24,399 bases of DNA from a virus, in IMG/VR virus record IMGVR_UViG_3300012039_000027, positions 1-24,399 of that record; one strand, 5' to 3'. The notes beneath the pieces are model-generated. The model searched no databases. It was given only the letters and a program-made list of their open reading frames with translations, and had not been told where the DNA came from. Shown here piece by piece: positions 2,522-17,219 of the stretch; within the stretch, counting starts at the first letter, position 1, and each line of letters starts with the position of its first letter. The position numbers and the translations under genes were made by a program.

Positions 2522-2652
2522 GCAACACGGTCCCGTTCTTCTTCGGCGTCATGACGACGCTGTTTTGCACGATGCCGTTGCTGGCGATGCTTTTGCTCGT
2601 GGACATGGACAGGCGGCGCAATGCCCATCTCGAAGAACCAAGCGCTGGTTGA
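2518..2652 (+). CDS. 44-residue membrane peptide with GTG start
   Basis: The GTG overlaps the previous stop as GTGA. Residues 5-29 are hydrophobic (PFFFGVMTTLFCTMPLLAML), followed by an abrupt charged tail (DMDRRRNAHLEEPSAG). The last 32 bases overlap the start of the minor head protein gene in another frame. Evidence is limited to the overlap pattern, the clean membrane segment and the similarity in style to its four neighbours; it may be dispensable or spurious. Confidence 0.45.
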   Translation: MSNTVPFFFGVMTTLFCTMPLLAMLLLVDMDRRRNAHLEEPSAG

Positions 2653-3655
2653 CGAATCGATCGGGCACGCGATCGACTTGCAGTACTACGCGAACGGCGT
2701 GGTGCGCGAGGAGGTGGGCGGTTTGAACGCGGATGATGATGAGCTTTTCGCGCTGCTGCTCGCCGCGCTGCTCGCGTTGTCGCCCGGTGCTACGCCGGCG
2801 CAGATCGACGCCGCGATTGGCCCGGCGTTGATGTTGAGTGAGCGTGCCTACGGCGACGTGAGCCGCGAACTTGCAGCGAAGATGGAGGAACTGGCGCGTG
2901 AGGAGGCCGACTACCAGCAAGAATTGTTGGCTGCGGCGCAGGACGTAACGCCGACTCCGATGGACACCAACGGCACCATCGCCGAGATGCTCGCCGTGCC
3001 GATCCTCGGGCTGACCATCGCCGAAACGATGCGCGGATTGTCCGCTGCCCGTTCGGACGCTATCCGCCGCGCCGCGCAAGCCGGGTTCGTCAACGGCCAA
3101 ACGCCCGACGAGATTGTGCGCGCGTTGCGCGGCACCAAATCAACCGGCTTCACGGACGGCACCTTCAACAAACTCCGGCATCACCTCGAAACCACGATTC
3201 GCACAGCCCTGAGCCACGCCACCTCGTACGTCACCGCCGCCGTCCGCGCGCTGAACTCGAACATCGTGCGGGCCGTTATGTGGGTGTCGGTGCTCGACTC
3301 GGCGACCAGTTCCTGGTGCATCGCGCGGGCCGGGAAGCGCTACACGGCCGACAACGCCCATCGGCCCATCGGCCATTCGTACGATTGGGGCGCCGGACCC
3401 GGGCGCTATCACTACAACTGCCGCTCCACCTCCGCCCCGCTTCTGGCGGGCGAGGTGCCGAACGCCAACGCCTTCGGCGACTGGCTCGGCCGGCAAAGCG
3501 CCGCCCGGCAAGACGAGGTGCTCGGCCCGACGCGCGGCGCCCTGTATCGCCGCGGGCAGGTTTCGGTCGAAGGATTCCTGAACAACAAGGGGAAACTCCT
3601 GACGCTGGCCCAACTTCAAGCGCGGAATGCGGGAATTCCCGCACTCGCAGCGTGA
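2621..3655 (+). CDS. Minor head protein, phage Mu gpF / SPP1 gp7-like
   Basis: This 344-residue protein belongs to the Mu-F-like head morphogenesis group, whose members join the procapsid near the portal and act in head assembly or DNA ejection. The N-terminal half is helical. Residues about 225-275 hold the family core, with D...WC (C233) and a later YHYNCRS (near residue 267), corresponding to the usual D-x-x-T-C and H-P-x-C-R-C positions. Residues about 295-340 carry RQDEVLGPTRGALYRRG and LLTLAQL, typical of the C-terminus of these proteins. It precedes scaffold and capsid genes, as expected. The portal and terminase genes that normally precede it are absent from the window. The start overlaps the tiny upstream gene, and its Shine-Dalgarno (AGGCGG) is weak. 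Confidence 0.85.
   Translation: MPISKNQALVDESIGHAIDLQYYANGVVREEVGGLNADDDELFALLLAALLALSPGATPAQIDAAIGPALMLSERAYGDVSRELAAKMEELAREEADYQQELLAAAQDVTPTPMDTNGTIAEMLAVPILGLTIAETMRGLSAARSDAIRRAAQAGFVNGQTPDEIVRALRGTKSTGFTDGTFNKLRHHLETTIRTALSHATSYVTAAVRALNSNIVRAVMWVSVLDSATSSWCIARAGKRYTADNAHRPIGHSYDWGAGPGRYHYNCRSTSAPLLAGEVPNANAFGDWLGRQSAARQDEVLGPTRGALYRRGQVSVEGFLNNKGKLLTLAQLQARNAGIPALAA
3628..3643. promoter_or_regulatory. 16-base perfect palindrome near the end of the minor head gene
   Basis: TGCGGGAATTCCCGCA reads the same on both strands. In RNA it would give a six-pair stem with an AAUU loop, just before the stop codon at 3,655. It is the first of five inverted repeats within about 150 bases. It lies in coding sequence (Asn-Ala-Gly-Ile-Pro-Ala), so chance cannot be excluded. 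Confidence 0.5.
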
Positions 3656-3667
3656 AGGTTCAACGTA

Positions 3668-3688
3668 GAATCTCACGTCGTGAGATTC
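3668..3688. promoter_or_regulatory. 10-1-10 perfect inverted repeat, candidate operator or terminator
   Basis: GAATCTCACG, one T, then CGTGAGATTC: two 10-base arms with a single central base, 12 bases after the minor head stop. As RNA it folds to a nine-pair stem with a three-base loop, followed by CATCTTTTCTC, a weak U-rich tail. It may be an attenuating terminator before the capsid genes. As DNA it has the symmetry of a dimeric repressor or activator site. Both readings are inference. Confidence 0.6.
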
Positions 3689-3711
3689 CATCTTTTCTCA
3701 AAATGCCAAAA

Positions 3712-3779
3712 TCGCGGATGCGAGATTGGCGCACCGGGCCGGATGGCCCCTCCGCACTGCCTGGGCGGATGCCCGCAGT
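3712..3779 (+). promoter_or_regulatory. Three consecutive hairpins, each with a GGAT loop
   Basis: Three hairpins with an identical loop follow one another in the leader of the scaffold gene: TCGC-GGAT-GCGA (3,712-3,723); GGGCC-GGAT-GGCCC (3,736-3,749); and GGGC-GGAT-GCCC (3,763-3,774) extended by ACTGC/GCAGT (3,756-3,760 with 3,775-3,779) across a two-base bulge. The last one ends 18 bases before the scaffold ATG, which has no purine-rich Shine-Dalgarno. GGA exposed in a hairpin loop is the core site of CsrA/RsmA-type RNA-binding proteins, but that protein is only one possible reader. Repetition of both shape and loop argues for a function. Confidence 0.55.
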
Positions 3780-3797: not shown

Positions 3798-4562
3798 ATG
3801 AAACTCAAACTCACCCCCGACGGATCAGCCGTGGTCCAAGACGGCAAGCCGGTCTACGTGCACGACGACGGCAAGGAAATCGCCTTCGACGCAGTGGGCA
3901 CCGCCGCCACGATCCAGCGCCTCAACGCCGAGGCCCGCGACCACCGCGTCCGCGCCGAAGCCGCCGAAGCCGCCCTCAAGCCCTTCGCGGGCATCGAGGA
4001 CGCGGCCAAGGCGCGCAAAGCGATGGAACTGGTGGCGAACCTGGACGCGAAGAAGCTGGTGGATGCCGGCGAGCGCGACACGGCCGTCGCACAGGCGATC
4101 AAGTCGGTGGAAGACAAGTTCATGCCCGTTCAGCAAGAGCGCGACAAACTGCAAGAGCAGCTTCACGCCCACATGGTTGGCGGAGCGTTTTCGAGGTCGA
4201 AGTACATCGCCTCGAAATTCGCTACCGAAGGCCCCGCGGGCGTCGAGATTGCGCAGGCGCTGTTCGGGAAGCAGTTGAAGGTCGAGGACGGGAAGGTAGT
4301 CGCATACGACGCCAACGGCGCCAAGATTTACTCCCGGTCCCGCCCGGGCGAATTCGCGGACCCGGAAGAGGCGATTGAGTTGTTGGTGGAGGCGCACCCT
4401 TACAAGGCGAATCTCCTCAAAGGCTCGATGGCCTCGGGCGGCGGCGCCGGTCCCTCCGGCCACAACGCTGGGGGCAGTGGACAACTTCGAGGCAAGCTGG
4501 ATGGCACGCCCGAGGAGCGGACGGCATATTTCGCGTCTAAGTATCAAGAGCTCAAAACGTAA
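3798..4562 (+). CDS. Phage scaffold-like protein (DUF6651-type)
   Basis: This 254-residue protein lies directly upstream of the major capsid gene, the usual scaffold position. The N-terminus (MKLKLTPDGSAVVQDGKPVY) followed by VHDDGKEIAFDA resembles phage proteins of the DUF6651 type. Residues about 30-130 are Ala/Glu/Lys-rich and predicted to be a long helix or coiled coil (KLQEQLHAH near its end), the classic form of a scaffold that guides procapsid assembly. A compact C-terminal half and a Gly/Ser linker follow, ending in a charged tail. The frame stays open to 3,726, but the start at 3,798 is preferred because the family begins with MKLK and the upstream part is the hairpin tract. The usual Shine-Dalgarno is missing. 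Confidence 0.7.
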   Translation: MKLKLTPDGSAVVQDGKPVYVHDDGKEIAFDAVGTAATIQRLNAEARDHRVRAEAAEAALKPFAGIEDAAKARKAMELVANLDAKKLVDAGERDTAVAQAIKSVEDKFMPVQQERDKLQEQLHAHMVGGAFSRSKYIASKFATEGPAGVEIAQALFGKQLKVEDGKVVAYDANGAKIYSRSRPGEFADPEEAIELLVEAHPYKANLLKGSMASGGGAGPSGHNAGGSGQLRGKLDGTPEERTAYFASKYQELKT

Positions 4563-4604: not shown

Positions 4605-5567
4605 ATGGCACTCAGTGACATGAAGGTTTTCAATCAATACGTTCGCGAAGCGACGATTGAAACCCTCGCCCAGATGGTCGACAAGTTCAACGGCGCCTCC
4701 GCGGGCGCGATCCAACTGTCCACGACCGGCTTCGACGGCGACTACATGATGCGCTCGTCGTTCTCCAGCCTGCACAGCGCGCAGCGTCGCGTGGATCGCT
4801 ACGCGACGAACACGTCTGCGGCCGCAACGGTGCTCGCGCAACTCCAGCACAACACGGTCAAGATCGCGGGCGGATTCGGCCCCATCGAATGGGAGCCTTC
4901 GCAACTGCGCTGGGTGGGAGACAACCCTGCCGCCGCTGTCGAGGTCATCAGCCGCAACATGGCCGAGTCGATCATGAAGGACATGTTGAACACTGCCATC
5001 GCGGCAGCGGTCGCTGCCATCGAGAACGTCGGCGCTACCGCCTACTTCGATACCGGCACCGGACCGATTTCACTGGCAGACCTCAACAGCGCTCACGCCA
5101 AGTTCGGCGACATGAGCCAACTGCTGGTGTGCGATGTCATGGATGGCACCACGTACCACGCTCTCATCGGCCTGAATCTGGCCAATGCGGCGACGCTGTT
5201 CCAAGCCGGCAACGTCACCGTGGTGAACATTCTCGGCAAGACCACGGTCGTCACTGACGCCCCGGCTCTGCGCGAGACGGGCACCGGTGCGGACCAGAAG
5301 GTGTTGTCCCTGGCTTCGGGCGGCGTCGTGGTCCACGACGCGGGCGATCTGGTCACCAACATCGAAACCACGAACGGCGCGCAGCGCATCGTGACCACGA
5401 TGCAGGCGGACTACACGTTCGGCCTCGGGCTGAAGGGCTACGCTTGGGACACGACCAACGGCGGCAAGTCGCCGACGGACGCGGAACTGGCGACGGGTTC
5501 GAACTGGGACAAGATCGCCACGAGCCTGAAGCACACTGCGGGCGTCTTGACGCTGGCGAACATCTAA
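4605..5567 (+). CDS. Major capsid protein
   Basis: This 320-residue protein is assigned from its position after the scaffold, its size, and a composition typical of HK97-fold capsid proteins. It shows an N-terminal helix (MKVFNQYVREATIETLAQMV), then a middle region with TVKIAGGFGPIEWEPSQLRW. A helix (SRNMAESIMKDMLNTAIAAA) and a second domain with MSQLLVCDVMDGTTYHALIG follow. The C-terminal strands include TNIETTNGAQRIVTTMQADY and GLKGYAWDT. AAAGGA precedes the ATG at good spacing, fitting high expression. No protease gene is visible nearby, so maturation cleavage is uncertain. The exact capsid family was not identified. Confidence 0.75.
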   Translation: MALSDMKVFNQYVREATIETLAQMVDKFNGASAGAIQLSTTGFDGDYMMRSSFSSLHSAQRRVDRYATNTSAAATVLAQLQHNTVKIAGGFGPIEWEPSQLRWVGDNPAAAVEVISRNMAESIMKDMLNTAIAAAVAAIENVGATAYFDTGTGPISLADLNSAHAKFGDMSQLLVCDVMDGTTYHALIGLNLANAATLFQAGNVTVVNILGKTTVVTDAPALRETGTGADQKVLSLASGGVVVHDAGDLVTNIETTNGAQRIVTTMQADYTFGLGLKGYAWDTTNGGKSPTDAELATGSNWDKIATSLKHTAGVLTLANI

Positions 5568-14308: not shown

Positions 14309-15247
14309 ATGGCGTACACGCGGCCAGACTATAACGATGCGGATGCATCGTGGCTCGGCCTCGCGGCATACACGCGTCTCGCTTACAACGATGCAGACGC
14401 GACTTTCTATGAGCCGACAATTGCCACGGTTGAGGGCATCCTGGCGGACGGTGGGCTGCCTGCCGCGCCGTCGTTCACCTCCACGCCGTGGATCGTGTCG
14501 CTGCTTGCTGATGATGGACTGCCGGCCGCGCCGTCCATCCTCGCTCTGTACGGTGTTGGTGGCTGGCTCTCGGATGGCGGACTGCCATCTGCGCCTTCGT
14601 TCGTCGCGGCGAAGGGTGTCGTGTCGTGGTTGTCGGACGAGGGGTTGCCGTCGCCGCTCTCCGGCGCCGTGTACACCGACCCAACACCGTTCATCGACCC
14701 GAATGCGGCGGTGCTCTACGTAATGGATTTGCTGGTAGACGGCGAACTGGTACGAGTGCCGATCAGTTCTTGGCAAGCGACGCTCCAGACCGACTCAAGC
14801 AGCTATGTGCAGTGCGTCGTGTCGGCGTGCGGCGATTGGCTCGACACGATCAACGCCGCAACCGAATTCGTCGTCAGTCGCGTCGGTACGCTCTACCCGG
14901 CGTATGGAGGCGCGCTTGTCGAGGGGCAACTAGCGCGCGGCCCGGTGCAGACGGTCGCAGTGTCGCGCGGCGCCACCAACTACTCCGCCGTCATCAGCGG
15001 CTACATCGACGCCATCGAAGCGGACGATGATCCCGCCAGCCTCTATGACCGCGAACTCCAAGACGTTCGCTCAGTCGCCACATACGGCGAAACAATTTCC
15101 ATTCGATGCGGCATCGACTGGCTTCTGCGGCCAGGGCAACGCGCGGTCTACGGCTCTGTGAATTTCGTCGTCAGCTACATAAATTACTACGTGACCAGTT
15201 ACGCGACTTCGATCGACGCGTACATGGACGTTGGCCACAGGACTTGA
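14309..15247 (+). CDS. Tail protein with two sets of short internal repeats
   Basis: The 312-residue protein shows YTRPDYNDADASW and YTRLAYNDADATF near residues 3-33, then four tandem units of about 24-26 residues centred on LADGGLPAAPS, LADDGLPAAPS, LSDGGLPSAPS and LSDEGLPSPLS (residues 40-128). From about residue 140 it is non-repetitive: LYVMDLLVDGELVRVPISSW, then CVVSACGDWLDTINAATEFV and a Tyr-rich end. The repeats probably form a linker or stalk and the C-terminal half a structural domain, perhaps in the tail tip or baseplate given the next gene. No named family recognised. Confidence 0.6.
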   Translation: MAYTRPDYNDADASWLGLAAYTRLAYNDADATFYEPTIATVEGILADGGLPAAPSFTSTPWIVSLLADDGLPAAPSILALYGVGGWLSDGGLPSAPSFVAAKGVVSWLSDEGLPSPLSGAVYTDPTPFIDPNAAVLYVMDLLVDGELVRVPISSWQATLQTDSSSYVQCVVSACGDWLDTINAATEFVVSRVGTLYPAYGGALVEGQLARGPVQTVAVSRGATNYSAVISGYIDAIEADDDPASLYDRELQDVRSVATYGETISIRCGIDWLLRPGQRAVYGSVNFVVSYINYYVTSYATSIDAYMDVGHRT

Positions 15248-15251
15248 GGCG

Positions 15252-17219
15252 ATGGGCTGGGCTACGCTCACGAACAATCTTGGCGAGGGCCGCTACCGCA
15301 TCAAGATCGACTCGGGTGAGTCGCGTCGGGTTGCTCTTTTGAACGCGGCCAACCAAGCGCTCGCCATCGTTGGGACCAAGATCAACGCTTCGCAGGAGCT
15401 CGTCACGCAAGCCGATGCGTTGGAATCCGCCGCGCGCGGCGCGCTTACTGCGCTGATTGATGCTCTTGTTGCGGAAAACGATCCTGTCGCAGCAGGCTTG
15501 GCACAAAAAGTTCTTGCTGTCGAGCAAAAGAAGTATGCGGCCCTGGTCGCATCGAATCAACCGCTTCGACAGCAACACGCGACGCTAAAGAATACGCAGA
15601 CCGATCTGGTGCGTCAACGCAGCGCATGGGACGCTTTGCAGACGATCACGTACAAAGAAGCGTGGTGCACAGATTACACCGTCGGCGCTTCGGGATCATC
15701 GTCTATTCGTGCCACGATCGATATTCCAGGCGACCCGTCGCTGACGTTGCTTGCGCCCGGATGCCGCACGGCTCGCTCAGGCGACGGCACCATTTCATCT
15801 GCACGCAAGGCTGCGGCTCTGAGTCGGCGCGCGAACGAACTGATAAGGACCAACGAGAGTCTGGTGGCAGCCAATGCGTCTTTGACTACGGCCCGCGCGA
15901 CTGAAACGACGCTGAAAACCGAGGTCGCTGCTGCGCAAGCCACGTACGTCGCCACGCCGACCGATGCCAACTACGTGATCTTTGAAACCAAGACACGGGA
16001 ACTCGCCGCGAAGCGACACGAGATTGCAAATCTGACCGTCAGCAAGCAGTACATCGACATCACCATCGCGAGACTGAGTCAGGAAATTACTTACTGGTCT
16101 GGTCGTGCGGCGTCCGAAACGCCAAACCCTGGCGACGGTGCGCTGCTTGAGCGCGAATTGACGTCGCCAGCACAAGCCTACTTTAACGCCGCCATCTTTC
16201 CGGCATGGCAAAAATGGCTGCCGACGTACCGCTGGGGCACAGCGTCAAATGTCGATGAAAGGGCCAACACGATGACGGTGACGTTGGCCGCCGCGACTTC
16301 CCTCGCGCAGCGGCTGAACGTGAACAAGGAATCGACGCTGAGCAACGTTCCCGTTGTTTACATGACGTGCAACGCGGCAGCGTTTGAGGACGGAGACCGG
16401 GTGGTCGTGGGCTTCACCGGACAATCGTTCGAGTCGCCCACAGTCATCGGATTCCTAGACAACCCGCGCGAGTGCCTAGCATGGCCAACTGTTGTCATGG
16501 ACTTGTGGTTTGAGTGCGTGGTGGAGTCGTCTCCTGGCACTCGGCCATGGGCCAACGTTCACTATGGCATCAGTGATTGTGCGAACGTGTACGAGCGAAC
16601 GTTCATCAACTCAATGGCCAACCGGCCGATAGCGCCCACCGCCACTCACTCTATCAGACTGGAGAGTCCGGTTTTTTCCTCCGCAGGCGACGACCAACAC
16701 TTCACCATCAACGTCGAGGACGGAAACTTCAGCACGTTGTGGACGGGCAGCAGTTCGGCGTTTGCGTTTGACGTGGGAGATGGTTCCACCGCGGCTTGCC
16801 CGGGAAGCACATCGCTGGCCAGCTATTTCACGACGTTGGCGACGGGCGGAGCTGCGTTTGTGCGACTGGTCGAGCACTCTACATCGTCCTTCACCCAGGG
16901 CGTGGTGCACGGTTACAACAACACCGTGCCGGGTGACGGTTCGTGCGTCATCAACAACCAACAATCCTCGGGCGCGTGGATCAATCCGGGCAACGTGAAC
17001 GATGGCGTCCAGCAGGTGCCGGTCGATGCCGTTTACCACTTTGACGCTGCTGCTGAGGAGTTTCTGAACTCTCAAGGTGCGTTGCCCACCGCCATCAACG
17101 TCACACGTAATCGGGGCGGGCGCACGCCTTCTCTGTACGTGCTGACAGGCACCAGTGAAACGGAATTCGACAGCGGGCTACGTCGCCGCTGGCGTTTGAC
17201 GTACGAAAGGCAAGTATGA
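15252..17219 (+). CDS. Large tail-tip/baseplate protein with coiled coils
   Basis: This 655-residue protein starts at ATG 15,252 (AGGA nine bases upstream); a TTG 21 bases earlier is an alternative. It opens MGWATLTNNLGEGRYRIKID, then helical stretches about residues 35-125 and 180-280 (SRRANELIRTNESLVAANAS). Between them lies CTDYTVGASGSSSIRATIDI-like beta sequence ending LTLLAPGCR. Residues about 330-420 (TMTVTLAAATSLAQRLNVNK, then DRVVVGFTG) could be an OB-type strand domain as in gp5/gp27-class hubs, but this is a weak call. The C-terminal 230 residues are Ser/Thr/Asn-rich, possibly receptor-facing. Position and size support a tail-tip role; the precise homologue is not identified. Confidence 0.6.
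   Translation: MGWATLTNNLGEGRYRIKIDSGESRRVALLNAANQALAIVGTKINASQELVTQADALESAARGALTALIDALVAENDPVAAGLAQKVLAVEQKKYAALVASNQPLRQQHATLKNTQTDLVRQRSAWDALQTITYKEAWCTDYTVGASGSSSIRATIDIPGDPSLTLLAPGCRTARSGDGTISSARKAAALSRRANELIRTNESLVAANASLTTARATETTLKTEVAAAQATYVATPTDANYVIFETKTRELAAKRHEIANLTVSKQYIDITIARLSQEITYWSGRAASETPNPGDGALLERELTSPAQAYFNAAIFPAWQKWLPTYRWGTASNVDERANTMTVTLAAATSLAQRLNVNKESTLSNVPVVYMTCNAAAFEDGDRVVVGFTGQSFESPTVIGFLDNPRECLAWPTVVMDLWFECVVESSPGTRPWANVHYGISDCANVYERTFINSMANRPIAPTATHSIRLESPVFSSAGDDQHFTINVEDGNFSTLWTGSSSAFAFDVGDGSTAACPGSTSLASYFTTLATGGAAFVRLVEHSTSSFTQGVVHGYNNTVPGDGSCVINNQQSSGAWINPGNVNDGVQQVPVDAVYHFDAAAEEFLNSQGALPTAINVTRNRGGRTPSLYVLTGTSETEFDSGLRRRWRLTYERQV

Follow-up and report, generated by a model that had tools for sequence, protein, structure and literature searches.

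The window analysed here is the whole of a 24,399-nucleotide stretch, a 24.4-kb viral contig (IMG/VR record IMGVR_UViG_3300012039_000027). Its + strand carries a run of head genes. A head morphogenesis protein gene (2621–3655; Phage_Mu_F-like, phrog_241, PHROGs E 2e-84, with the Pfam family Phage_Mu_F slightly below its cut-off) is the upstream neighbour of a scaffolding protein gene (3798–4562). The latter was assigned to DUF6651 (Pfam E 7.7e-33) as well as to phrog_784 and the head scaffolding family phrog_206 (PHROGs E 1.1e-87 and 2.8e-19), and is followed by a major capsid protein gene (4605–5567; Gp13-like, phrog_247). Between the first two genes, a pattern scan located an intrinsic-terminator-like hairpin of 9 bp with a T-rich tail (3668–3698, + strand), and immediately downstream of it lies an array of three hairpins that share the same loop.

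Hairpin array upstream of the scaffolding gene

The first-pass annotation had described three GGAT-loop hairpins within 68 bases, namely TCGC-GGAT-GCGA (3712–3723), GGGCC-GGAT-GGCCC (3736–3749) and GGGC-GGAT-GCCC (3763–3774) with further outer pairs (3756–3760/3775–3779), and had placed the scaffold ATG (3798) 18 nt past the last stem, without a Shine-Dalgarno sequence. Both descriptions were confirmed, and folding placed all three hairpins on the + strand. Hairpin 1 (3705–3730) consists of an inner stem (3712–3715/3720–3723) closing the loop GGAU (3716–3719) and an outer stem (3705–3709/3726–3730), which the first reading had missed and which extends the whole element to 3705–3779 on the + strand. 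Hairpin 2 (3736–3749) carries its GGAU loop (3741–3744) on a single stem (3736–3740/3745–3749), while in hairpin 3 (3756–3779) the GGAU loop (3767–3770) is closed by an inner stem (3763–3766/3771–3774) within the outer one.

Judged from the window alone, the case for the hairpins was modest. The + strand contained four GGAT tetraloop hairpins with stems of 4 bp or more, where 0.48 were expected, and a triple with any identical tetraloop within 70 nt arose in 2 of 150 shuffles of the window. The folding energy of the element was not unusual (z −1.36; z −0.36 for a longer stretch). Elsewhere in the window, a 7-bp GGAT hairpin (14334–14351) occurs singly, without an array, inside the coding sequence of an ORF (14309–15247), and a minus-strand match at 16568–16665 (14.7 bits) was taken as chance. 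The phage of this window has no second GGA array, including before its major capsid gene. The comparison with relatives provides the decisive evidence for the hairpins.

Conservation of the loops and covariation of the stems

Related loci were collected through the scaffold protein, giving 80 viral, 80 bacterial genome and 13 phage record loci, and the region 5' of each scaffold start was inspected. At least one GGA-loop hairpin was present in 148 of the 153 distinct leaders, and 133 of them held two or three. Upstream of the scaffold starts, 320 of 554 GGA trinucleotides (149 leaders) opened a tetraloop whose stem had 4 bp or more. The figure was 3.0% elsewhere on the same strand of these loci, and the opposite strand gave 1 of 62. 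When all 64 trinucleotides were compared, the runner-up to GGA reached 8%. The loop was GGAU or, less often, GGAA, and the hosts of the GGAA form included Pasteurellaceae, Neisseria and Moraxella. GGA was nearly invariant while the stems, which close on a Y-R pair, varied freely.

Covariation was measured in an alignment of 120 leaders that had neither been selected for hairpins nor fitted to the structure. Standard pairs occupied 88.4% of its cells, two-sided changes were found in 330 cells as opposed to 110 after shuffling, and the covariation score of 0.534 exceeded those of the shuffled (0.190) and best slid (0.131) controls; the counts span related sequences, and are thus not independent events, and were set against these shuffled and slid controls. 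Both the inner and the outer stem of hairpin 1 covaried. Hairpin 2 was paired in 98.7% of cells in a selected alignment of 46 sequences, with two-sided changes at all five pairs, and the inner stem of hairpin 3 was paired in 92.8% of cells in the unselected alignment, also with two-sided changes. One pair of hairpin 3 illustrates the pattern, appearing as GC 38 times, CG 30, UA 30, AU 7 and UG 2, with 6 exceptions. The selected alignment as a whole was 93.8% paired. The stem changes were visible even among the closest relatives (77–80% protein identity).

At pairs 3–4 of the stems, GU was observed 74 times versus 17 for AC. GU is therefore tolerated far better than AC, which indicates that the constraint acts on the + strand RNA. 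The earlier suggestion that the shared loop on differing stems reflects selection on loop and shape was thus borne out, given the invariant loops, the compensation in the stems and the + strand RNA signature. A search for relatives that lack the compensatory changes or the loops was also carried out, and the idea survived it. Four loci (L097, L112, L150 and L153) have normal scaffold genes and no hairpin array. One of them, L097, retains a GGTC/GACT stem, but its loop is AAAT.

Placement, further copies and host range

Of 137 distinct leaders, 128 had their last GGA hairpin ending within 25 nt of the start codon, and 82 contained an SD-like sequence. Directly 5' of the element, 117 of 150 distinct leaders had a terminator-like hairpin with a T run, versus 26 of 395 control windows. 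This hairpin sits inside the late operon and has to be read through in late transcription, for instance with the help of a Q-type antiterminator like the one annotated in Escherichia phage HK639.

Several features of the collected records were noted alongside. In three loci (L163, L164 and L174), the public annotation puts the scaffold start 5' of the conserved MKLK start, so that the leader hairpins are annotated as coding. Acinetobacter phage records, e.g., OQ101254 and MZ675741, label the scaffold 'telomere regulation protein', a name whose source is probably a chance Pfam Stn1 match (E 0.36 here). Two tRNA genes lie directly upstream of the scaffold leader in one viral contig (L017, 1385–1537).

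A covariance model detected a second copy in the scaffold-to-major-capsid gap of relatives, made up of hairpin 1, again with its outer stem, and hairpin 2. It covaried in the same manner, with hairpin 2 paired in 99.3% of cells. This copy was present where the gap is long and missing where the capsid gene begins a few bases past the scaffold stop; the capsid genes that follow it encode proteins of at least two families. A third copy, a two-hairpin module, was located directly 5' of a tail-tube-like gene in L294, the contig of L026 (11522–11616, minus strand), and again in L338. Some capsid leaders (L008, L085, L095, L130 and others) offer an alternative long-range helix of 8–12 bp, in which a segment immediately 5' of the Shine-Dalgarno sequence pairs with the GGAU loop and the 3' arm of hairpin 1; this helix was the minimum-energy fold in four examples. 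The competing helix could provide a switch between two folds in these leaders; it scored better than shuffled sequences in 8 of 23 capsid leaders, and is thus not general.

Searches that disregarded the genes led to the same positions. A pattern comprising two of the hairpins had at least 120 matches in the viral collection; among the 120 matches listed, 107 lay before a scaffold start (101 by HMM and 6 ending at the scaffold's first codons), while the 13 with no scaffold after them were judged to be chance matches in coding sequence. The 40 matches to a second gene-blind pattern comprised 36 in the scaffold-to-capsid gap, three before a scaffold and one before a tail-tube-like gene. Across nine phage sequences, tandem arrays occurred only 5' of scaffold and capsid genes, except for one stray pair in HK639. 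A host-wide system of GGA hairpins was sought with the covariance model in 369 gammaproteobacterial genomes, where only the copy in a PA7 prophage was convincing. The weak matches in those genomes were rejected, since they lacked a scaffold as well as properly formed tandem GGA arrays.

The element was found in well over a hundred phages of diverse bacteria. DUF6651 phages with it infect Alpha-, Beta- and Gammaproteobacteria, Cyanobacteria and Planctomycetes, and phages of Caulobacter, Synechococcus and Rhizobium are among its carriers. Neither the window nor the leaders of 14 relatives contained a match at or above the gathering score of any Rfam 15 family, and permissive Rfam scans of three leader sets returned matches at chance level or to parts of terminators only. 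The element is absent from Rfam 15, and is an uncatalogued RNA family and a candidate for a new database entry. Judging by the alignments and searches, it is almost certainly a structured RNA under selection in the leaders of phage structural genes, in respect of both its structure and its specificity.

Candidate readers of the loops and comparison with known systems

The balance between scaffold and coat protein in tailed phages is an old question, and feedback in phage P22 was described decades ago. The first-pass annotation had raised the possibility that an RNA-binding protein controls the translation of the head genes, and had pointed to CsrA/RsmA. The part of this proposal that concerns gene expression held: the invariance of the loops, the compensation in the stems, the + strand signature and the position at translation starts make a role of the element in expression very likely, and very probably it acts as a control switch that sets the amount of capsid protein made. 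A reader of the loops that works in all these hosts would have to be a factor that every bacterium has or one that the phage supplies. An all-against-all BLASTP comparison of eight divergent phages with the element, five of them represented by records to 50 kb, found only two families common to all eight, the portal and the DUF6651 scaffold.

The CsrA part of the proposal fared differently. Several GGA motifs in hairpin loops, one of them near the ribosome site, are the anatomy of Csr targets, both of CsrA/RsmA-controlled leaders and of the CsrB/RsmZ sRNAs, and host control of the head genes through such sites would account for the array. Csr/Rsm proteins bind with high affinity to a stem capped by an ANGGAX hexaloop (PMC4005645), and a SELEX consensus is available for CsrA (PMC7652899). 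The A at position −2 of ANGGAX was present in 3 of 317 hairpins, and bases −1 and −2 were paired and covaried. The loop is therefore a closed GGAU or GGAA tetraloop on a varying Y-R pair, unlike the hexaloop or pentaloop with an unpaired A. In addition, CsrA was not found in 22 host genomes whose prophage carries the element, using a model that gave positives in Escherichia coli, Bacillus and Thermotoga controls. These hosts include Variovorax, Acidovorax, Janthinobacterium, Comamonas, Castellaniella, Aquitalea, Rhizobium, Neisseria and Moraxella; some of the genomes are draft or metagenome assemblies and several are isolates, and the absence follows taxonomy. CsrA was found in most gammaproteobacterial and in the planctomycete hosts, and 0 of 35 phage records encoded it. 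As hosts without CsrA carry the full element, host CsrA cannot be the general reader of the loops, and we consider it very improbable that the hairpins are CsrA/RsmA sites. Hairpins with GGA loops are by themselves no proof of CsrA control.

Other explanations dispense with CsrA. The array may act on the ribosome, as a standby or enhancer site, or protect the 5' end from RNases, and in either way support high expression of structural genes without a dedicated regulatory protein. Any universal factor would work in hosts of three phyla, the copies stand 5' of the most abundant structural proteins, and the terminator-like hairpin upstream suggests processed or separate mRNA ends; a stabiliser, however, would not require a particular loop, whereas GGA hardly changes on stems that vary freely, and two or three equal copies suggest recognition, which leaves this explanation somewhat unlikely. 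If a protein does recognise the loops, it might be another phage product, such as the portal, the capsid protein or an unrecognised small regulator. The portal too was present in 8 of 8 phages, and capsid and tail-tube genes also carry copies, but the capsid proteins behind the element come from different families and no small protein family was shared by 8 of 8 in the BLASTP comparison, which misses distant relatives and in which five records extended to 50 kb. We therefore judge a different phage binder to be unlikely.

A transcriptional role in the manner of the HK022 put element, in which the RNA would act on RNA polymerase so that late-operon terminators downstream are read through, appears more doubtful still. 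Its tandem hairpins and the universality of the polymerase would suit it, as would the terminator-like hairpins 5' of the element and, often, in the scaffold-to-capsid gap. The conserved terminator nevertheless precedes the element and is out of reach of such an RNA, and the last hairpin is at the ribosome site in almost all leaders, which an antiterminator does not need. To our knowledge, put has no GGA loops. It resembles the element in its tandem hairpins in phage RNA and works in cis, but it acts on early genes via RNA polymerase and its position relative to terminators is the opposite (PMC9378689). A packaging or replication signal at the DNA level, the former also suggested by the first-pass annotation, would suit an element among head genes; it fits poorly with the GU/AC asymmetry, which is seen at the RNA level, with the strand specificity and with copies at several gene starts that are placed by gene start rather than by genome end, and is hardly credible.

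With these alternatives in view, we interpret the element as a structured mRNA leader that would serve as a translational operator of phage head genes, most likely bound by free scaffolding protein, a reading that we hold with middling confidence. In almost all leaders the last hairpin ends within 25 nt of the start codon, where a bound protein would stop the ribosome; this position, together with the scaffold feedback of P22, makes autoregulation by the scaffold the best mechanism that we can infer. The nascent leader would fold into two or three small hairpins with identical GGA(U/A) tetraloops, the last of them lying where the 30S ribosome has to sit on the scaffold gene. A protein with specificity for the GGA tetraloop in the setting of this stem shape would bind the tandem sites jointly, and initiation would be blocked or its rate set. 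Scaffold that is free, i.e., outside procapsids, would in this way shut off its own synthesis, and capsid or tail-tube genes with their own copy would be shut off as well, matching supply to assembly.

The scaffold is our best single guess for the reader of the loops. Relatives of solved structure are lacking, and no RNA-binding domain or fold could be recognised in it (AlphaFold model of modest quality, pLDDT 71.6; Foldseek matches all with E >1). Against it stand the four loci without the array, which keep a normal scaffold; its conserved N-terminus is unchanged in them, and there is thus no co-loss. The capsid and tail-tube copies are as compatible with a regulator of structural genes in general as with a scaffold-specific reader, and the host range would be explained equally well by a host factor common to all bacteria, for instance the ribosome. 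A fuller reading, which we advance tentatively and with less assurance than the operator itself, is that the uncatalogued family is the operator of a scaffold-sensing loop kept in DUF6651 phages of all the proteobacterial, cyanobacterial and planctomycete hosts above. Free scaffold would read the GGA tetraloops before its own gene, before the major capsid gene (in a subset via the competing long-range helix) and occasionally before the tail-tube gene, and the supply of head and tail would follow assembly. The RNA is compact, covaries strongly across very divergent phages and can be cloned with its gene for a single reporter strain, and it points to one prime suspect protein.

Other RNA motifs invite comparison. 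GP20-a and GP20-b are reportedly conserved RNAs that lie 5' of a scaffold-type structural gene in Firmicutes phages. The element would share this placement, but its scaffold belongs to DUF6651, and PF06810 (GP20) was not among the Pfam matches of that scaffold even at E 5. Tandem hairpins with a conserved GGA-containing loop reportedly also form the TwoAYGGAY RNA motif. That family, named in PMC2864571, did not turn up in the Rfam scans of the leaders. It also differs in its loop, AYGGAY, and in its organisms, and has no tie to scaffold genes.

King and co-workers in 1978 and Wyckoff and Casjens in 1985 reportedly found that unassembled P22 scaffolding protein (gp8) lowers its own synthesis. 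The loop proposed here would be of the same kind, with unassembled scaffold feeding back on its own mRNA, although the scaffold family and the RNA site differ. We know of no such hairpin array and of no RNA site family for the P22 feedback, and a literature search on scaffold autoregulation, DUF6651 and the GP20 motifs returned nothing usable. The R17/MS2 coat operator is a phage translational operator. Together with the operator sites of T4 gp32, RegA and gp43 (reviewed in PMC3014915), it resembles the element in that an RNA structure at the ribosome site is read by an abundant phage protein, the reader being a proposed one in our case. Unlike these operators, the element consists of two or three equal hairpins, stands before several structural genes and is spread over very divergent dsDNA phages.
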